In this document: in pieces, positions 6,829 through 40,419 of the stretch | Layout of the letters: each line of letters begins with the position of its first letter | How positions within the stretch are numbered: position 1 is the stretch's first letter | Virus record (IMG/VR): IMGVR_UViG_3300048588_000101 | Location: 1-41,537 of that record | Direction: 5' to 3' (one strand) | Source: a virus | Length of the DNA: 41,537 nt | Position numbers and translations under genes: made by a program | Notes under the pieces: generated by a model | The model's database searches: none | Told to the model about the DNA's origin: nothing | The model's input: the letters and a program-made list of their open reading frames with translations, nothing else

Positions 6829-7116
6829 ATGCGCATATTTTTTACCCGCCGGTTCCACGGCAGCCCGGATGGCGGCAGAAGCGTCAAAACCTACCGGCCC
6901 GGCCGCACCTACACGGTGCCGGGCGACATCCCGGCCGACCTGGCCGCCGCCGCCCTGAAAACCGGCAGCGCGAAGCAAGGGAACCACACCGATCCGCTGC
7001 CACCCGTCACCAACACCCTCGACGACACCACCACCCGGCGCGGCAAGCGCCCACCCGACAACAAGGCGCACCAGAATGCACCACCGAACAAATCCGCTGG
7101 CCGGCTGGAAACCTGA
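6829..7116 (+). CDS. Small head-region protein, unknown function
   Basis: A 95-residue protein directly after the capsid terminator. Residues 1-50 (KTYRPGRTYTVPGDIPADLAA) resemble short proteins often found after capsid genes in siphoviruses. The C-terminal half is polar and disordered-looking (TTRRGKRPPDNKA). No enzymatic motif or membrane segment is visible. It overlaps the next gene by 41 bases. A minor head or decoration role is only suggested by position. Confidence 0.7.
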   Translation: MRIFFTRRFHGSPDGGRSVKTYRPGRTYTVPGDIPADLAAAALKTGSAKQGNHTDPLPPVTNTLDDTTTRRGKRPPDNKAHQNAPPNKSAGRLET

Positions 7117-7753
7117 CAGCACGGCGGTACTGATCGCCAGCGGGCCGAGCCTGACGCCGGCGCAGATCGAATACATCAGGCCACGCCGCGCCTTCGGCGA
7201 TTTGTGGGTGGGCGGCGTGAACGACGCCTACCGCATTTGCCATTTCCTCGACCTGCTGTATGCCGCCGACTACGGATGGTGGCTGCACCACGCCGACGAC
7301 CTGCAGGTGGCACCGTGGACCGTCAAAGCGTGCTACGTGCCGGCCGCGGCCGAGGGCCGCGAGGATCCGGGCCAGGCAATCACCGCCCTGCGCGAGCGCC
7401 TCGACCTGCGGTGCATTCCCGGCCGGCAGGCGCCCGGCATCAGCCTCGACCCGGCCGCGGTCCACCTCGGCCAGCATTCCGGGTTTCAGCTGATCAACAT
7501 CGCCATACAGGCCGGCGCCAAGCGGATCGCCCTGCTCGGATTCGATTACCGGTTGGCCGATGACGGCGCCCGGCATTGGTTCGGTGACCACCCGGACCAC
7601 CTGAACCGCGACAGCCCATACCAGCGGTTTATGTACGAACTGGAGCACGCCGCGCCAGGCATCGCCGCCGCCGGCGTCGAGGTGATCAACTGCAGCCCAG
7701 GCAGCGCCCTGCGGTGCTTCCGCCAGGCCCGCCTCGAGGATGCCATCGAGTGA
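7076..7753 (+). CDS. DUF115/Maf-like putative glycosyltransferase, copy 1
   Basis: A 225-residue protein resembling the DUF115 superfamily, which includes flagellin glycosyltransferases (Maf), MptE-like pterin pyrophosphokinases and relatives of GT42 sialyltransferases. The nucleotide-binding signature AVLIASGPSLT lies at about residues 18-28. HSGFQLINIAIQAGAKRIAL with LGFDYRL around residues 140-165 is the second conserved block, and the C-terminal INCSPGSALRCF closes the domain. The adjacent gene is a paralogue with the same blocks. The substrate cannot be read from sequence; a sugar or activated cofactor transferase is likely. It is the first gene of a six-gene cassette with ATGA/GTGA overlaps between capsid and connector genes. 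Confidence 0.72.
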   Translation: MHHRTNPLAGWKPDSTAVLIASGPSLTPAQIEYIRPRRAFGDLWVGGVNDAYRICHFLDLLYAADYGWWLHHADDLQVAPWTVKACYVPAAAEGREDPGQAITALRERLDLRCIPGRQAPGISLDPAAVHLGQHSGFQLINIAIQAGAKRIALLGFDYRLADDGARHWFGDHPDHLNRDSPYQRFMYELEHAAPGIAAAGVEVINCSPGSALRCFRQARLEDAIE

Positions 7754-8400
7754 TCCCGCGAAAGTATCCGGGCGCCACCGGCATCGTGGTCGGCACCGGG
7801 CCGAGCATCACCGACGCCGACATCGAGGCGATCCGGGCCGCCCGCCAGGCCGACCGGGGGCGGGTATTCGCCGCCAACCGCGCCCACGAGTTTGTGCCGG
7901 CCGACGTGATCCACGGCTGCAATTACCAATTCTGGCACCGCTGGTGGCCAGACCTGCGCGATCACCCGGCCGACCGATGGACCACGCGCCCGGAGCTGGA
8001 AGGGATATACCCAGGCCTCGAGTACATCGCCGAGCGATGGGAGCCGGGTCTTTCCCGCGACCCGGCATGGATTGCCGCTCACCACGGCACCGGGCCGCAG
8101 CTGGTCAACATCGCGTACCTGTACGGCTGCACCCGCCTGCTGTTGGTCGGATGGGACATGCGGTTTCATGGCAAGCAGGACAACCGCACCTACGTCACCC
8201 GGCGCTACCTCGGCGAGGATGACCTGACGCTGCAGCATTGGCCACGCACCGGGCCGAACGGCGAACTGGAGGGGCTGATCCGCGAGATGGAGACCATCCG
8301 TCCGGCCGAGTACGGTATCGAGATAATCAACTGCACGCCAGGCAGTGCCCTGCGCTGTTTCCCGTTCATGGAGATCGACCGTGCGCTTGCGACACCCTGA
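7750..8400 (+). CDS. DUF115/Maf-like putative glycosyltransferase, copy 2
   Basis: A 216-residue paralogue of the preceding gene. Shared blocks are GIVVGTGPSITDADIEAI near the N-terminus, GPQLVNIAYLYGCTRLLLVG with WDMRFHGKQDNRT in the middle, and the C-terminal INCTPGSALRCFPF. The GTG at 7750 overlaps the stop of copy 1 (GTGA), making it a better start than the upstream in-frame ATG at 7714, which lies in copy 1. Divergence between the copies is large outside the blocks, so different substrates are plausible. Expected to act in the cytoplasm on nucleotide-activated donors. Confidence 0.72.
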   Translation: MIPRKYPGATGIVVGTGPSITDADIEAIRAARQADRGRVFAANRAHEFVPADVIHGCNYQFWHRWWPDLRDHPADRWTTRPELEGIYPGLEYIAERWEPGLSRDPAWIAAHHGTGPQLVNIAYLYGCTRLLLVGWDMRFHGKQDNRTYVTRRYLGEDDLTLQHWPRTGPNGELEGLIREMETIRPAEYGIEIINCTPGSALRCFPFMEIDRALATP

Positions 8401-9346
8401 AGTTCGCTACGAGGTCACCGACCATTGCAACGCCCGGTGCATCATGTGCCCGCGGGACAAGCACGACCGGCCGCACGGCATCATGGACACCGCCGCCTAC
8501 TGCCGGAGCATCGATGAGGTCGCCGCGATGGGCGCAACCCAAGTGGTTCTCACCGGCTTTGGCGAACCCATGCTGGACGTCGACCTGTCCCGCAAAATCA
8601 GCTACGCCAGCGAGGCCGGCCTGCGCACCTACATCATCAGCAACGCGTCGGCGCTGACCGAGGCCAAGGCGACCGACCTGCTGCGCGCCGGCCTGAGCGA
8701 GCTGCGTGTTTCGTTTTACGGCATGCGCCCGGAGACATACGGCGCGGTGATGTCGGGGCTGGACTACTACCGAGCCACCGAAAACCTGCGCACCTTCCTG
8801 CGCGTGCGGGCCGAGATGGGCGCCGCCTGCAAGCTGCAGATGAGCTACCTGGTGCTGCCGCAGAACGCCAGCGACACCGAGCGGTTCCGCGAGTATTGGG
8901 AACCGCTGGTCGACGCCATCGAGATATGGCGCCCGCACAACTTCGGCGACGGCAGGCATTACCGCAAGCGCACGCTGACCAAGCGCAGCTGCGGACGGCC
9001 AGACAACGGGCCGCTGCAGATCCAGTGGGACGGCACCGTGGTGCCGTGTTGCTACGATTACAACAACGCCATGCCGCTGGGTAACGCCTTCCGCCAGCCG
9101 ATCGCAGAGATCCTGACCGGGCCGGCGTACTACGACCTGCGCGACGCCCACAAAAAAGGCGAGTTCCACCGCGTTCCGTATTGCGACCAATGCGACCAGC
9201 TGCTCGAGCACCCGGACGCCCTGGTTTACAGCAACCGGCACGACCTGCCGCCGGCCGAGGCGGTGCAACTGAGCAACACCGATCTCTACAACCTCGACCA
9301 GGGCCGCCCGATAGACCCGGCGCGCACCAAAGGAAAACAACCATGA
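8381..9346 (+). CDS. Radical SAM/SPASM domain protein
   Basis: A 321-residue iron-sulfur enzyme. The radical SAM cluster motif CNARCIMC (Cys16, Cys20, Cys23) is near the N-terminus, followed by the TGFGEPMLD block that contacts SAM. The C-terminal part is a SPASM-like auxiliary cluster domain: IQWDGTVVPCCYDYNN, then PLGNAFRQPIAEI, and finally PYCDQCDQL. SPASM enzymes modify peptides, proteins or sugar-nucleotides using a 5'-deoxyadenosyl radical. The GTG at 8381 has GGAG seven bases upstream and overlaps the preceding gene by 20 bases. Such an enzyme inside a phage structural operon is unusual; its substrate is unknown. Confidence 0.88.
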   Translation: MRLRHPEVRYEVTDHCNARCIMCPRDKHDRPHGIMDTAAYCRSIDEVAAMGATQVVLTGFGEPMLDVDLSRKISYASEAGLRTYIISNASALTEAKATDLLRAGLSELRVSFYGMRPETYGAVMSGLDYYRATENLRTFLRVRAEMGAACKLQMSYLVLPQNASDTERFREYWEPLVDAIEIWRPHNFGDGRHYRKRTLTKRSCGRPDNGPLQIQWDGTVVPCCYDYNNAMPLGNAFRQPIAEILTGPAYYDLRDAHKKGEFHRVPYCDQCDQLLEHPDALVYSNRHDLPPAEAVQLSNTDLYNLDQGRPIDPARTKGKQP

Positions 9347-9879
9347 GCGACATCGTCGGCGACCGCGAAAAATTCAGCCGGGGCTGGCAGAGCGGCATGC
9401 CGGAAACGCCGTGCGGATCAGGATCAACCATGGCGCGAACAGCCGCACAACGCGCCTGGCTGCCGGGCATGCTGCAGCGGCATGGCGTGCGCAGCATCGC
9501 CGACATCGGCGCCGGCGACCTGAACTGGATCCAGGCCACGGCCATCCCGGCTGGCGTGGCGTACACCGCATACGACCTGGTGCCGCGCCACCCGCGGGTG
9601 CGCGCCTTCGACCTGGTGACCGACATGCCGCCCGCCGTTGACCTGATCATGTGCCTGTGGGTGGTCAACCATTTGCCCTACGAGGCCGCCCGCAAGGCCA
9701 TCGCCAACCTCCGGGCCAGTGGCGCCAGGCTGCTGCTGATGACCGACCGGCCACGCTGGCACCACGAACAGCCGCCTGAGATCCACATGCCGTACATAGA
9801 AAAGCTGGACCTCGGCACCGATGCCGGTGACCGCCTGCTGCTGATCAGCCTGGCCGACCAGGCCGCGCCGCCATGCTGA
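9343..9879 (+). CDS. Class I SAM-dependent methyltransferase-like protein
   Basis: A 178-residue protein with a Rossmann-type methyltransferase core. Motif I reads SIADIGAGDLNWI at about residues 49-61, followed by an acidic strand end (AYDLVPRHPRV), then DLIMCLWVVNHLP as motif IV/V, typical of small-molecule or sugar methyltransferases. The N-terminus has a conserved-looking EKFSRGWQSGMPETPCG. It overlaps the radical SAM stop by four bases. It is shorter than most family members and lacks a clear substrate-binding domain. Confidence 0.78.
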   Translation: MSDIVGDREKFSRGWQSGMPETPCGSGSTMARTAAQRAWLPGMLQRHGVRSIADIGAGDLNWIQATAIPAGVAYTAYDLVPRHPRVRAFDLVTDMPPAVDLIMCLWVVNHLPYEAARKAIANLRASGARLLLMTDRPRWHHEQPPEIHMPYIEKLDLGTDAGDRLLLISLADQAAPPC

Positions 9880-10508
9880 CGGTGTGGGCGGTTCAGGTCG
9901 GCGAAAAGTACCCGCCGCATTACCTGCACAAGCTGCACAAAGCCGTGGCGCGCAACCTGCGCCAGCCGTTCGCGTTCGAAGTGCTGACCGACAACCCGGC
10001 GGCCGTTCCCGGTAAGGCGCACGCGCCAGACACCGCGCTGTGGGGATGGTGGCAGAAAACCGCCCTCTTCCACCTCACGCGGGACCAGCCGCCAACCCAC
10101 CAGAACCTGTACATCGACCTCGACAGCGTGATCGTGGGCGGCCTGGACGCGATGCTGGAGGCCCACCGCGGCGACCGCCTCGCCATGCCGGCGAATTGGG
10201 CACAAAGCGGCCACGGTGGCTGCCAGAGCAGCGTCATGATTTGGGCCGGTGGTGCGTACCCGGAGATCCGCGACGACCTGACCAGCGCCACCGCGACCGG
10301 CCTATGGGGCGACCAGGAGTGGATCACCATGCTTCTAGGCCAGCCAGGCCAGGGCAAGGTGGCCGCGATCGCGCACCCGACCGTGGTCAGCTACAAGTAT
10401 CACTGCCGGGAGACCGGCCAGCCGCCCGCCGGCGCCGCCATTGTGACCTTCCACGGCAAGCCCGACCCGCACGAGGTCGACGACAGCTGGGTGCGGGCAT
10501 GCTGGTAA
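9873..10508 (+). CDS. GT-A-like glycosyltransferase
   Basis: A 211-residue protein resembling GT8/GT32-type glycosyltransferases. The DxD-like metal/nucleotide-sugar motif is in LYIDLDSVIVGG (residues about 84-95). It is preceded by ALWGWWQKTALFHL, a pattern common in phage and bacterial glycosyltransferases of this type, and followed by SSVMIWAGG and WGDQEWITMLL acceptor-site-like blocks. The C-terminal IVTFHGKPDPHEV is also characteristic. No membrane segment is seen, so it is probably cytoplasmic. It overlaps the methyltransferase by seven bases. Donor and acceptor unknown. Confidence 0.78.
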   Translation: MLTVWAVQVGEKYPPHYLHKLHKAVARNLRQPFAFEVLTDNPAAVPGKAHAPDTALWGWWQKTALFHLTRDQPPTHQNLYIDLDSVIVGGLDAMLEAHRGDRLAMPANWAQSGHGGCQSSVMIWAGGAYPEIRDDLTSATATGLWGDQEWITMLLGQPGQGKVAAIAHPTVVSYKYHCRETGQPPAGAAIVTFHGKPDPHEVDDSWVRACW

Positions 10509-23269: not shown

Positions 23270-23785
23270 GTGCTAGACCCGGAACAGCTGCGGCGTTTTG
23301 TCGTTCGGCCGACCCTCGAGGAACTTGGCATGTGGAGCCAGGCGGCGGAGAACCTGGTTATGGGCACCGCCGCGCAGGAAAGCCACCTGACGTACATCGA
23401 CCAGAAGGAACCAGCCGGACGCCGGCCGCAGATCGGGCCGGGCCTCGGCCTGTGGCAAATGGAAGCGGCAACGCACGACGACATCTGGAAAAACTGGCTG
23501 ACCGCCAGGCCGGCCATCGGCAAGCGGGTGCTCGAGGTGGCCTGCGTGTGGACCAGGGCCGCCGCGCTGTTTTCCGTCGACCCCGGCGTGCTGGTTTACA
23601 ATTTGCGCTACGGCGCCGCCATGTGCCGGATCCACTACCGGCGGCGACCGGAACCGCTGCCAGCGGCCGACGACGTGGCTGGGCTGGCCGACTACTGGAA
23701 GCGCCACTACAACACCAGCGCAGGCGCGGGGCGCATTGAGCAATTCACTGCCAATTACCGGCGGTTCATAGGAGTCGCAGCATGA
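23270..23785 (+). CDS. Transglycosylase-like virion or lysis protein
   Basis: A 171-residue protein with a lysozyme/SLT-like fold signature. AENLVMGTAAQESHLTYID carries the probable catalytic Glu37-Ser38, followed by GLGLWQMEAATHDDIWKNWL, as in soluble lytic transglycosylases. The C-terminal half has the conserved ADYWKRHYNTSAGAGRIEQF segment. Cognates occur beside tail genes of many phages, where such proteins may locally open peptidoglycan during entry or act as endolysin. No signal peptide is visible. The start is a GTG just behind the previous stop with GAGAGG upstream. Confidence 0.68.
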   Translation: MLDPEQLRRFVVRPTLEELGMWSQAAENLVMGTAAQESHLTYIDQKEPAGRRPQIGPGLGLWQMEAATHDDIWKNWLTARPAIGKRVLEVACVWTRAAALFSVDPGVLVYNLRYGAAMCRIHYRRRPEPLPAADDVAGLADYWKRHYNTSAGAGRIEQFTANYRRFIGVAA

Positions 23786-25779
23786 CAACCAAAGCCCGCG
23801 CCGGCGTCGGCGCAACCTTCGAAGTCGACAGCGGCAGCGGATACACCTACGTCGCCGACCTGGTCAGCATTGGCGGCCCTGAGATTGCCGTGGAGCAGGT
23901 CGAGGTAACCAGCTTGGACAGCACGGCCGGGTACAAGGAATACATCCCAGGATCCCTGGACGGCGGCACCGTCAGCCTAACGCTGCACTTCAGCAACAGC
24001 GCCGCGCAACGCGCCCTGCTGGCAATGGTTGGTAGCATCGACGTCGCGTCCTTTCGCGTTCTTCTTCCGACCAGCCCGACCTCCCACTACACCTTTACCG
24101 GCAGCGTCACGGCATGGACGCAGAGCGCAGAACCTAACACGCCGATGGTGGCAGAACTGACCTTCAAAACCAGCGGCGCCATCATCACAACTACCGGCGC
24201 CTTTCCGTTGGCATTTTCCATCCCGGCGGCCGTTACCTACACGGCTGGCGGCGTCACCACATACAGCGGCGAGGATGCGCCAGACGACGGTGTCAATTCG
24301 TTCACGGGATACTATTCACCTGTTGGAACTGTCGATGTTCATGCCGGTTACAGCAACGCGACAGAAGCGCGGGATACCCGCGTGCATTTCACGTTCCCTG
24401 GATCTGCCGTTGCAGGGCAGGCTGGGAATGGCATAACGTTAAAAACGAACGCGGTGGTGCATTCCGCCATGCTGCGATTCAAATGTTCATACCGAGGCAG
24501 CGGTGTGACAACGGGCCGTTTCTACGCAAAGAAGGTTCAGCAGAGCACCGTCGTCGCGGGATTGGATGCGTCATCGCAATGGCTGGCAGCAGGGCGAACA
24601 ACGTCGGCATATGTGACATGGACGCCATCCGTCGGGACTGCGGCCGTCGACGTGACTCCGCTGATCAACGAGCTGCTCGGATCAGCGGAGTGGGATGAAA
24701 CGGACGCCACGGTGCAGTTCTTCTTTCGGTCTGACACGCCGCCAGGCGACATCACGGCGGCGCCGGACCCGAATGTTTATCGTATTTCCTTTGATAGATA
24801 CGATGCGCCGACGTTCCTCACTTCCCTTTCAATCAGCGCAACGCAGGCCGACGGAGATCCAGAGACAGCCGCCATCACAAGCGGGCGCGTGATCAACTAC
24901 TGGCCGATCAACGCGGCAGACCTCGCGCTGGCAAACAGGGTCCGATACGTGGTGCAGAACGCATCGAACGGCCGCAGGAGCAGCACCGTGCTGGCGTCGA
25001 ACTTCAGTGGTTTGACCGGCACGACGCACAACACGACATGGAAAACCACCGCCCTGATCGGAAGCATTTTCGAGCTTGGAACGTGGGACATTGATGCGCA
25101 GGCGGCGATCTTTGGCGACGCCTACGCAAACCACGCAGATCTGCTGGCCGCCGGGACGGTTTCTAGCCTGCTTGGATACACCAACGGGTGGATAACGAAT
25201 TTCCGCGACCGAGACTACCTGTTGCTCGCATCGTTCGACTACGCAACGACAGGGGAAACCAGGCTGGTATTCGACCTATGGAATGCAACAGCGCCGCTGC
25301 AGAATTGCCTGTACGTCGTAGCGAACGGCGCCACCCAGCGAGTAGAGGCAGAATGCCTGAGCGCCGGCGCAGCAAGCGCAAGCACGCAGGGCGCGAAGGC
25401 AACTCACCTTGCATTTGCGACCGGCGTCGCGCCGGCGGCAAATCGCACACTACGAATCGCGCTGTTTTGGGATCACCTGACTTTGACGTTCAACTGGCGC
25501 GTATGGACCACAGACAGAGTGACGGGCGCGACGGCGCTGGTTGGCTCTGGATCGTGGAGAACAGCGAGCATCATGAACCCGGATTCAAATACAACGGCAC
25601 AACGCAATATGCGCAGCCTTGTCGGGTTCGGCTGGGTATTCCCGGAAGGCGCCTACGGCACCGCGCTGATCGAGTTCACGCAGCCTGCAGCAGCGGTATG
25701 GGTGGACACCAGCAACTGGATGACAGCCGCATGGGTGCGCGGGGTCAAGTCGCTGGATCCGCGGCTGATGGCCGCATGA
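23782..25779 (+). CDS. Tail-tube paralogue fused to long C-terminal domain
   Basis: A 665-residue protein. Residues 1 to about 135 clearly match the major tail tube protein at 13157: KARAGVGAT, then EVTSLDSTAGYKEYIPG, GGTVSLTLHFSN and FRVLLPTSPTSHYTF. Residues about 140-665 are Thr/Ala/Ser-rich, beta-strand heavy and unmatched, and encoded partly by less GC-rich DNA. Likely a minor tube or tail-decorating subunit with an exposed carbohydrate-binding or adhesion domain. Its ATG overlaps the previous stop. A duplicated tube gene 10 kb away from the first is unusual. Confidence 0.8.
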   Translation: MTTKARAGVGATFEVDSGSGYTYVADLVSIGGPEIAVEQVEVTSLDSTAGYKEYIPGSLDGGTVSLTLHFSNSAAQRALLAMVGSIDVASFRVLLPTSPTSHYTFTGSVTAWTQSAEPNTPMVAELTFKTSGAIITTTGAFPLAFSIPAAVTYTAGGVTTYSGEDAPDDGVNSFTGYYSPVGTVDVHAGYSNATEARDTRVHFTFPGSAVAGQAGNGITLKTNAVVHSAMLRFKCSYRGSGVTTGRFYAKKVQQSTVVAGLDASSQWLAAGRTTSAYVTWTPSVGTAAVDVTPLINELLGSAEWDETDATVQFFFRSDTPPGDITAAPDPNVYRISFDRYDAPTFLTSLSISATQADGDPETAAITSGRVINYWPINAADLALANRVRYVVQNASNGRRSSTVLASNFSGLTGTTHNTTWKTTALIGSIFELGTWDIDAQAAIFGDAYANHADLLAAGTVSSLLGYTNGWITNFRDRDYLLLASFDYATTGETRLVFDLWNATAPLQNCLYVVANGATQRVEAECLSAGAASASTQGAKATHLAFATGVAPAANRTLRIALFWDHLTLTFNWRVWTTDRVTGATALVGSGSWRTASIMNPDSNTTAQRNMRSLVGFGWVFPEGAYGTALIEFTQPAAAVWVDTSNWMTAAWVRGVKSLDPRLMAA

Positions 25780-26276
25780 GCACGCGGTGGGTATGCGCGG
25801 TGATCGCCATCGCCGCCCTGCAGATTGCCGGCGCCGCCGAGCTGCGCGTGGCAGGCGGCGCGGCCCTGGCCGACGTCAGGCACCTGACCGAAGCCGGGCC
25901 GGCCCTCGAGGTCGGTATCGACCACCAGGTCGACCATGGCGCATGGCGCGCCACCGTCGCGTGGATCGGTGAACAGGACGTCACCACCAGCGGCGCGATC
26001 CACCAGCGCGGCACCATCGGCGATTATTGGCTGGCCGGCGCACAAGGCGTCTACCAGCACCAGGTCGGCCGCGTTCGCCTCGAGGCCGGCGCCGGGCTGG
26101 CCTGGCGCACCGAGGCCAGAAACGTCCACTACCTGCTGCCGAGCCGGGCGAACTTCAACCTAACGCTGGGCCTGCGCATCGGCCGCACCACCATCGAGGC
26201 GCGCCACATCAGCAACGGCTGGACCAGCGACGGAAACAAGGGACAAAACTGGTTGCAGGTCGGGATCGCCTTTTAA
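25776..26276 (+). CDS. PagL-like outer-membrane barrel (lipid A deacylase family)
   Basis: A 166-residue protein with an N-terminal signal peptide (ends near IAGAAEL). The C-terminal RHISNGW (His144, Ser146, Asn147) followed by a final amphipathic strand ending in Phe (NWLQVGIAF) matches PagL-type lipid A 3-O-deacylases, whose catalytic residues include His and Ser of an H-x-S-N motif plus a downstream Glu. Here the position aligning with that Glu is Asn158, next to Gln157, so activity is uncertain. If functional it would modify host LPS, possibly blocking superinfection or weakening the outer membrane. It overlaps the previous gene by four bases; the upstream frame is a shadow. Confidence 0.72.
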   Translation: MSTRWVCAVIAIAALQIAGAAELRVAGGAALADVRHLTEAGPALEVGIDHQVDHGAWRATVAWIGEQDVTTSGAIHQRGTIGDYWLAGAQGVYQHQVGRVRLEAGAGLAWRTEARNVHYLLPSRANFNLTLGLRIGRTTIEARHISNGWTSDGNKGQNWLQVGIAF

Positions 26277-26329: not shown

Positions 26330-26923
26330 ATGCGAACCGTGATCCGCCTTGCCATCCTGCTGCTGTTCGCCGCCACCGCAACCGCACAGACCGCCGGCAC
26401 GGTGACCTTCACCGCCCAGGCAACGACCGGCAACGGATCGGTCACGCCGGTACTGACGTGGAGCACGGCGCCAGCCGCAACCTCCTGCACCGCCGGCGGC
26501 AGCTGGAGCGGCACCAAGGCCGCAGCCGGCACCGAAACCCTGCCAGCCATCGCGACCAACGCCACCTACACCATCACCTGCACGTGGCCAGACACTGCGG
26601 CGCTGGTGTCGTGGACGCCGCCCACGAAAAACACCGACGGCAGCGACTACACCACGCCAAAGCTGACGCGCATTCTTTACGGCCGGACAGCGGCGAGCCT
26701 CACGCAGACGCAGGATGTGAACGAGCCAGCGACCAGCTACCAGTTCACCGGGCTGGCGTCCGGCGCGTGGTTCTTCGGCGTCAAGGCGGTCAACCAGGCC
26801 GACCGCGAATCCGCCCTGTCGAACGTGGCATCGAAAGTGCTCGGCACCGCCACCGCCAGCCGATCCGTCGGTATTACCGTCAACGCACTACCGCTGCCGC
26901 CCACCGGCGTGACGGTTCAGTGA
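26330..26923 (+). CDS. Secreted protein with FN3-like domain
   Basis: A 197-residue protein with a typical signal peptide (hydrophobic AILLLFAATATA, cleavage near residue 19). Three cysteines occur in the mature chain. Residues about 95-170 look like an FN3 repeat, including TKLTRILYG-like strands and WFFGVKAVNQADRESALS, ending in Ser/Thr-rich sequence. GGAGG precedes its ATG. Its place between the PagL-like barrel and the holin suggests an envelope-associated accessory or lysis-related role; no enzyme motif is seen. Confidence 0.72.
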   Translation: MRTVIRLAILLLFAATATAQTAGTVTFTAQATTGNGSVTPVLTWSTAPAATSCTAGGSWSGTKAAAGTETLPAIATNATYTITCTWPDTAALVSWTPPTKNTDGSDYTTPKLTRILYGRTAASLTQTQDVNEPATSYQFTGLASGAWFFGVKAVNQADRESALSNVASKVLGTATASRSVGITVNALPLPPTGVTVQ

Positions 26924-26948: not shown

Positions 26949-27212
26949 ATGCTGGCTGGATACCGCACCCTGATCGTTGCCGCCATTTGGCTGATCTACC
27001 AGATCGCCGCCGTGGTGGTTCCTGATTTCCAGGCGCCAGGCCAGCCGACCGTCGAGGCATTGGTCGACGCGCTGATCGCCATCGGCGGCCCGTTGATTGT
27101 CGCCTTCCTGCGCCTGCGCACGACCGGCCCGGTTGGGCCAGCCGTCCAGCAGGCGCCCGTGCTCGGCGCCCTGGCGAAAAGCGAGCCCAAGCCACCGGAG
27201 GATACGCAATGA
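26949..27212 (+). CDS. Putative holin
   Basis: An 87-residue membrane protein with two hydrophobic segments: TLIVAAIWLIYQIAAVVV (about residues 7-24) and ALIAIGGPLIVAFLRL (about 41-56), then a polar C-terminus. This two-segment layout and the short length fit a holin, which would permeabilise the inner membrane for lysis. GGAG is six bases upstream of the ATG. It overlaps the lipoprotein gene by four bases. Holins are too diverse for a family call. Confidence 0.68.
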   Translation: MLAGYRTLIVAAIWLIYQIAAVVVPDFQAPGQPTVEALVDALIAIGGPLIVAFLRLRTTGPVGPAVQQAPVLGALAKSEPKPPEDTQ

Positions 27213-27550
27213 ACCGCGCCAGCAAGCTGACCGGCGTGCTGGCCGCCGTGGCGATACTGATCGCCGGCTGCCAGACCTTTACGCCACCGGAACCGGCCAC
27301 GCCCACCGAAGCCGTGGCGATCGTGTACGCCAGCATCACGGCGACCGCCAGAGCGACCACAGAGCGCCTCGAGGCAGGTGCCATCACCGTCGACCAGGCC
27401 ACCGATGTGCAAAAGATCCTCGACCAGGCTGACGCCATTGCAGATACCGCAGCAGCGGCCCTCGCCGCCGGCCGAGCCGACGACGCCGCCACGTACCTCG
27501 ACATTGCCACCGGCATCCTGAGCCAGCTGGAACGGAGCGCACGCCGATGA
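27209..27550 (+). CDS. Lipoprotein, possible outer-membrane spanin subunit
   Basis: A 113-residue protein with a signal peptide and lipobox LIAGC (Cys21). The mature part is alanine-rich and helical, with a single Pro-rich stretch just after the Cys (FTPPEPATPTEA). In lysis modules such a lipoprotein beside a holin could be an o-spanin, but its length and the helical body are not typical of Rz1-type proteins. It overlaps neighbours at both ends. Confidence 0.65.
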   Translation: MNRASKLTGVLAAVAILIAGCQTFTPPEPATPTEAVAIVYASITATARATTERLEAGAITVDQATDVQKILDQADAIADTAAAALAAGRADDAATYLDIATGILSQLERSARR

Positions 27551-27781: not shown

Positions 27782-28201
27782 GTGGCGCGATACCAAGGGC
27801 GGCAAGTACCGACCAACAACCATGACGATCGGATCTCGGACCTCGACCGGCGCGTCGCCACGATCGAAGCCACGCTCGAAGGCGTCGCGGCCGGCGTCGA
27901 GGATCTCCGCAACCGTGAGGCGCAACCGACCAACTGGCTGGCATTCCTGGTTGCTGCGAGCATCATTGGCGCTGGCGGGGCTGTTTACATGGACACCCGC
28001 CTCAAGCCGACGGAAACCACCGTCCAGCACCTCGCGGTGGTGTCGACCGCCAACGCGGAACGCGTCGGGGCGATGGAAACAATCGTGGCGATGACCGCCA
28101 AGCACACCGATAAAACAGCAGCCCAGCAAGCCATCGTCCGCGAACGCATCGCCGCCATCGAAGCCCTCACGCGCGCCTCTCAACCCGCCCGGTTGCCATA
28201 A
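27782..28201 (+). CDS. Membrane protein with coiled coils, possible i-spanin or holin partner
   Basis: A 139-residue protein with a GTG start preceded by GGAG six bases away. Residues about 15-45 form a charged helix, one transmembrane segment lies at about 52-70 (LAFLVAASIIGAGGAVY), and a coiled-coil tail follows. It ends the rightward late gene series. The overlapping frame starting at the ATG 27762 is Arg/Ser-rich and is considered a shadow. Confidence 0.62.
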   Translation: MARYQGRQVPTNNHDDRISDLDRRVATIEATLEGVAAGVEDLRNREAQPTNWLAFLVAASIIGAGGAVYMDTRLKPTETTVQHLAVVSTANAERVGAMETIVAMTAKHTDKTAAQQAIVRERIAAIEALTRASQPARLP

Positions 28202-36882: not shown

Positions 36883-37200
36883 CTAAACCCCCGTCACCGG
36901 CATCCCCGCCAGCCACCATTTATGCACATCAAAACACGGGCAGTCCTTCGGCGGATCACCCGGCCTGATAACGTCCCTATGCCCCGTCACCTGCGCCCCT
37001 GGATACATCGCCAGCAGGAACTTGATCGTGGTCCTGAGCGCCGCCCATTGGCCCGGTGTGTAGTTCACTTCTGACTTGCCCTTTGCATCAATCCCGCCGA
37101 CCAGACAGACGCCGATCGAGTCCGAGTTTCGACCGAGTACATGACTGCCGACCTTATCCAAATGCGGGCCGCGCTTCGTGAGGCGAGGGAGGATGGTAGG
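36883..37200 (-). pseudogene. 5'-truncated T7-lysozyme-like amidase fragment, antisense
   Basis: Reading leftward, the translated frame DKVGSHVLGRNSDSIGVCLV with GGIDAKGK, then VTGHRDV and CPCFDV, matches the C-terminal two thirds of T7 lysozyme-like N-acetylmuramoyl-L-alanine amidases. The frame is blocked upstream by a stop at 37201-37203. The N-terminal part with the first zinc ligand and the catalytic Tyr is missing, so it is probably non-functional. It is the only clear minus-strand gene. The 3' end has VRP-like 'IRPGDPPKDCPCF' intact. Confidence 0.7.
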
Positions 37201-39958: not shown

Positions 39959-40419
39959 CCATCGACCCGACGCTGGCCTCGATCACCGCCATCCGCCTGA
40001 GCAAGGAAAAAACCGCCGACGCCAGGCGCAAGTACAAAATCACCCTGCTGATCGTGCTGCCGACCGCCGTGATCGCCGACCTTAGCCCGGATCCCGAGCT
40101 GACCGGCACCTTCTGGAACGGCAACGGCGAACCGCAACTGAGCAACCTCTACCCGCTGCACATCAACGAACCGATCCGCAACGTGCGGGCCAAGTTCCAC
40201 GACCGCCTAAAGCCAGGCGCCGGCCTCGAGCTGGATGGCGCCGACATCACCGCCATCACCGTCGAGCCACGAAACGAGGGCCGCGGCCTGGTTGAGATCA
40301 CCATCGAGGGCATCCACGAGAATGGCGCCATCGACGCCGGCGACCGCCTGTGGCGCATGATCGGCGTACCAACCGAAGTCAGCATCGCCGCCCGCCAGTT
40401 CACGATAGATCCAGCATGA
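39952..40419 (+). CDS. Hypothetical protein
   Basis: A 155-residue protein after a CACCACCACACAACCGGAG leader. Beta-rich with GLELDGADITAITVEPRNEG and LVEITIEGI near the middle. No family recognised with confidence. Confidence 0.68.
   Translation: MLTIDPTLASITAIRLSKEKTADARRKYKITLLIVLPTAVIADLSPDPELTGTFWNGNGEPQLSNLYPLHINEPIRNVRAKFHDRLKPGAGLELDGADITAITVEPRNEGRGLVEITIEGIHENGAIDAGDRLWRMIGVPTEVSIAARQFTIDPA

Follow-up and report, generated by a model that had tools for sequence, protein, structure and literature searches.

A phage-encoded member of the PagL family, predicted to be an outer-membrane lipid A deacylase

The closest described relatives of the protein examined here are PagL of P. aeruginosa (PDB entry 2erv; Pfam family PF09411) and PagL of Salmonella. 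In the account of a 2016 mBio paper (PMC4958258), active Salmonella PagL requires H163 and S165; the active enzyme raised vesicle formation about four-fold, the H163A/S165A variant did not, and PagL expression gave vesicles without an envelope stress response. OMPLA (PldA; Pfam PF02253) is described as a calcium-dependent dimer with the triad His142-Ser144-Asn156 (PMC5043575). No paper describing a phage-encoded PagL was found in the openly licensed PMC literature (titles and abstract starts).

The window, i.e. the whole stretch of viral DNA that was analysed, comprises 41,537 bases with a G+C content of 65%. The head genes are ordered large terminase, portal, protease and major head protein, with connector and tail genes following. 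Among named terminases, the four closest (45-49% identical) belong to Burkholderia, Acidovorax, Variovorax and Marinobacter phages. The open reading frame of interest (166 codons) and its neighbours are as follows.

23270..23785, + strand: lysozyme-superfamily-like protein, phrog_3108 (function unknown), candidate peptidoglycan hydrolase; weak fold match
23782..25779, + strand: tail-type protein, phrog_158 at residues 12-281; PHROGs match
25776..26276, + strand: predicted PagL-type outer-membrane lipid A deacylase, 166 aa; Pfam, alignment and model
26330..26923, + strand: secreted Ig/fn3-like protein; weak matches below cut-offs
26949..27212, + strand: small membrane protein, holin-like; inspection only
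27209..27550, + strand: lipoprotein with lipobox-like LIAGC, possible outer spanin; inspection
27782..28201, + strand: small membrane protein, weak XhlA/hemolysin-type match; phrog_1193, E 5.5e-4

The 25776-26276 gene is real. Its ATG overlaps the stop codon of the upstream tail-type gene (ATGA), and its codon-position G+C (0.69/0.52/0.88) is like that of the neighbouring genes. A sister contig (L002) carries a PagL-type gene at the same place and in the same arrangement, its product being 67% identical overall. The signal sequence has diverged between the two copies; dN/dS is 0.40 over codons 22-166, and the mature part therefore evolves under constraint. No PagL match was found in the 13 other contigs of the 14 that share the upstream gene, several of which are fragments. 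By inspection of the translation, the signal-peptide-like start (MSTRWVCAVIAIAALQIAGA followed by AE), the HISN motif and the terminal Phe named in the original prediction are all present. Residues 3-16 form a helix in the model, and the final residue, Phe166, is a C-terminal aromatic as in barrel proteins; the L002 homologue likewise terminates in Phe.

Pfam assigns residues 80-164 to PagL at 24.9 bits against a cut-off of 23, a margin of 1.9 bits. PagL was the sole family above its cut-off; among rows to E 1 the other was a weak unrelated family, and PLA1 (PF02253) gave no match. The L002 homologue scored 29.0 bits. A family alignment of 27 rows was built from viral and bacterial relatives, in which Gly107, His144, Ser146, Asn147, Asn154 and Gly156 are invariant. 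When residues 21-166 were shuffled 300,000 times, the spacing H.SN.{6}N.G arose in 11 cases. When the 27-row profile was searched against the PDB, a single sequence was matched, PagL 2erv, with E 3e-16. Searches of the PDB with the phage protein alone and with a two-sequence profile (phage protein and sister) missed 2erv and returned chance-level unrelated proteins; at the sequence level, 2erv is therefore reached through the broader profile, in which bacterial PagLs are included.

The AlphaFold2 model (pLDDT 84.5, pTM 0.76) has eight barrel strands. Its best Foldseek match was 2erv, which VIA-align superposed with Z 17.8 and an r.m.s.d. of 1.4 Å over 125 residues; the next rank had Z 15.4 at 2.6 Å, OmpA-type barrels scoring 15.4 or less. 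The mismatch to the PagL barrel that the original prediction had named as counting against it was thus absent, and its proposal of a phage-encoded PagL-like barrel stands. Since Pfam, the 27-row profile, the eight-stranded model, Foldseek and VIA-align agree, membership of the PagL family is well supported by sequence and model, and a known enzyme family gains a new member, here in an unusual setting. In searches for close relatives, the single sequence found none in viral contigs, genome contigs, phages or plasmids and no useful match in PHROGs or NCBIfam, and the two-row alignment with the sister recovered the sister alone. The sister and two other viral PagLs had no match in phages, nor did an 8.5-kb megablast against phages. 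The phage proteins returned by a fold search of BFVD were labelled either outer-membrane barrels or uncharacterised; PagL was not among the names.

The motif of the phage protein reads H144-I-S146-N147 ... N154-K-G156-Q157-N158. To the original prediction, the Glu of the triad appeared to be Asn158 (or Gln157). Its first choice is correct: the alignments place Asn158, and not Gln157, at the position 14 residues after the His (H+14), which in the PagL crystal sequence is occupied by Glu (E140 of P. aeruginosa PagL). Asn158 is retained in the sister homologue.

The residue at H+14 was then compared across the family. In a class-wide bacterial sample, 64 places were listed and 50 loci were read, of which 44 had the strict motif and six did not (L204-L208 were excluded from these totals). 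The 44 carry Asp (17), Asn (16), Glu (6), Thr (3), Gln (1) and Ser (1), i.e. Asn or Asp in 33/44 against Glu in 6/44. A pattern-found set from genome contigs gave Asn in 57, Asp in eight and Glu in three of 68, although this set is biased by a pattern with P-N, many Bacteroidota and near-copies, and the class-wide sample is the fairer of the two. From its 119 matches, 51 had been set aside, mostly longer Bacteroidota proteins, because in them no frame longer than 100 aa ended close to the motif. A gene caught in the viral scan (L319, 1923-2486) shares 99.5% identity with proteins that three records of a plasmid collection annotate as Salmonella pagL. It has His163, Ser165 and Asn177, the first two bearing the numbers that PMC4958258 gives for the essential residues. 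Ten PLA1 loci were also fetched, of which nine had H.SNG, with Asn (6), Asp (2) or Ser (1) at H+14. The spacings of the OMPLA triad (2 and 14) are those of His144-Ser146-Asn158.

Because Asn is common in bacterial PagLs and occurs in Salmonella PagL and in the OMPLA triad, it is a normal and probably working third residue. His144-Ser146-Asn158 is the likely triad, and a catalytically competent enzyme is the default reading of the sequence. The idea of an 'altered' site is thus not borne out: the active site is normal for the family, and the surprise disappears. A possible annotation pitfall is corrected at the same time, since demanding the Glu of P. aeruginosa PagL would mislabel most PagLs as inactive.

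The 23270-23785 product, encoded two genes upstream, is a conserved protein of 14 viral contigs whose Glu37 is invariant, and its motif looks lysozyme-like. Its model had no Foldseek match at E <= 0.001 (best E 0.7); the higher VIA rows were mostly muramidases, lytic transglycosylases or chitinases, with a best Z of 8.2, weakly suggesting a candidate muramidase or peptidoglycan hydrolase that lacks annotation. The 23782-25779 protein is matched at two separate places in L002 (1-420 and 10515-12452), and the segment 13157-13582 of the window opens with a similar sequence (MATKARAGVGAT); these observations suggest that a major tail protein has been duplicated and has gained an extension. Downstream, the L002 counterparts are 85% identical for the 26330-26923 protein (over 163 aa) and 99% identical for the 26949-27212 protein. 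As the synonymous difference from the sister DNA is 0.014 for 26949-27212, against 0.33-0.40 for the PagL and muramidase-like genes, this segment may have been exchanged recently. Family searches with the 26949-27212 and 27209-27550 proteins gave no match, and the small-gene cluster downstream of PagL yielded no firm holin or spanin match.

Two further features of the window were noted. The head genes are separated from the connector genes by a block of transfer-type genes (7076-10508, +), which comprises a sialyltransferase-type protein (phrog_4603), an MptE-like protein (below cut-off), a radical SAM protein, a methyltransferase and an unassigned protein, and possibly serves glycan or surface modification. 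The open reading frame at 36883-37161 (-) aligns with phrog_822, an amidase family, only from position 76 onwards and is perhaps truncated; the sister contig G001 yielded no match to it.

PagL-type genes were also sought on other viral contigs with three codon-pattern scans and one script, the scans undercounting through codon-choice limits (Arg-His, middle-T codon after His). In the 206 loci scanned, the motif lay near the frame end in 25; the 27-row profile was passed by 20, a test that is partly circular because the profile holds eight of the viral proteins, and 14 were distinct. Leaving out the Salmonella gene, 13 distinct viral PagL-type proteins remain, the sister (L002/L048) among them, with nine Asp, four Asn and no Glu at H+14. 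All eight of those tested exceeded the Pfam cut-off, and one of eight touched a PHROG, of unknown function; none was recognised as PagL. PagL-type genes thus recur in phages and are unrecognised by PHROGs annotation. L319 and L362 were dropped as phage PagLs because they are the Salmonella pagL gene; by inspection, L362 has an integrase-like frame beside pagL and L319 a response-regulator frame, and for these reasons both are probably host DNA beside a prophage. A quick family tree with four label changes was too weak to separate one from several origins of the phage genes and is compatible with a single origin. At about 50 loci within L018-L083, on many viral contigs, the motif pattern also picked out one protein that keeps recurring and whose complete frames run to about 500-560 aa; its motif lies mostly 55-59 residues before the end, and the frame is not of PagL type.

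Gene neighbourhoods vary among these viruses. In L084 a tail fibre J gene precedes PagL, with endolysin and Rz-like spanin genes following; in L304 a tail fibre J gene likewise comes first and PagL is followed by an Rz-like spanin, and in L033 an endolysin adjoins on the opposite strand. Together with the present phage, these have tail or lysis-type neighbours. Elsewhere PagL lies near a terminase (L049), a portal-type connector (L069), a primase (L076) or an RNA ligase (L394), and a lysis role as a general rule was rejected on this account.

From sequence and model, the phage protein most likely trims fatty acids from host lipopolysaccharide. Our main reading, to which we assign a probability of about 0.65, is that it is a late outer-membrane lipid A deacylase of PagL type that makes the outer membrane of the host looser or more curved at about the time of lysis. 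It would be made late in infection, exported to the outer membrane by Sec and BAM, and act there as a secreted, eight-stranded enzyme. Ser146 would attack the 3-O ester of lipid A, with His144 as the base and Asn158 orienting His144, and a 3-hydroxy fatty acid would be freed. Less certainly, the deacylated lipid A would loosen or curve the membrane around lysis; the outcome could be easier release, or the shedding of vesicles and LPS, sparing virions from recapture by this material. The late role is proposed because the gene overlaps the tail-type gene and lies between the candidate muramidase gene and the small membrane-protein and lipoprotein genes. The vesicle increase with Salmonella PagL makes loosening or shedding the most likely phage use, while the lack of an envelope stress response there argues against PagL being lytic by itself. 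Weakening of the outer membrane late in infection fits the tail and lysis-type neighbours, so the role in lysis raised in the original prediction gains some support from the neighbourhood, short of proof.

The main rival takes the same enzyme to be a receptor changer: whether in a lysogen or in the course of infection, deacylated LPS or an altered outer membrane would block superinfection or re-adsorption. LPS-changing exclusion by phages is described for O-antigen acetylation and glucosylation (PMC11436027), and the window holds the sugar- and methyl-transfer-type genes between head and connector genes. We nevertheless consider this reading unlikely: among the 41 distinct predicted window proteins, PagL included, the PHROGs scan found no integrase or repressor, a weak excisionase/regulator-type match at 40350 standing alone, and the late-gene position favours late expression. 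Lipid A is, moreover, buried and rarely a receptor.

It is less probable still that the protein is a PagL-fold phospholipase or esterase with an OMPLA-like substrate. The triad spacing and the H+14 residues of the PLA1 loci agree with such a reading, but Pfam scores PagL and not PLA1, the barrel has eight strands, and PagL is the best structural match. Least likely of all, and very improbable, is the non-catalytic barrel that the original prediction had entertained on account of the Asn. That argument falls away with the Asn of Salmonella PagL, which is compatible with the active enzyme described in PMC4958258; the His, Ser, Asn147, Asn154 and Gly156 are invariant in 27 rows, Asn158 is kept in the sister, and the dN/dS of 0.40 speaks for a maintained protein.

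A wider proposition, which we put forward tentatively and with considerable doubt, is that many kinds of tailed phages carry PagL-type deacylases (Asp or Asn, with no Glu so far) as a dedicated tool for remodelling the outer membrane. Such a tool might loosen the membrane at lysis, or let deacylated LPS be shed so that progeny avoid debris. If this were true, holins, endolysins and spanins would be joined by a further class of phage envelope enzymes that lacks annotation; if the enzymes are active, phages would possess lipid A enzymes acting on their hosts, which bears on how phages handle the outer membrane. The gene itself is ordinary; what is noteworthy is the presence of such genes in viruses.

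Compared with known systems, the phage protein shares with P. aeruginosa PagL a start that by inspection is signal-peptide-like, the predicted eight-stranded barrel and the H-x-S-N...N-x-G motif; it differs in having Asn for Glu at the third triad position, in much of its sequence (identity of about 24% across the structurally aligned residues) and in being phage-borne. Against Salmonella PagL (HFSNG...NSGHN, the phage protein having HISNG...NKGQN), the His, Ser and Asn positions are the same; overall identity is low, and the local alignment spans the C-terminal 36-38 residues only. OMPLA has the same His-x-Ser with Asn at +14. Its barrel, however, has 12 strands, whereas the phage protein is modelled with eight and lacks a Pfam PLA1 match. 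Like the phage PagL, D3 oac and P22 gtr are phage genes that change host LPS; as described in PMC11436027, they differ in acting on the O-antigen rather than lipid A and in being conversion genes of temperate phages.
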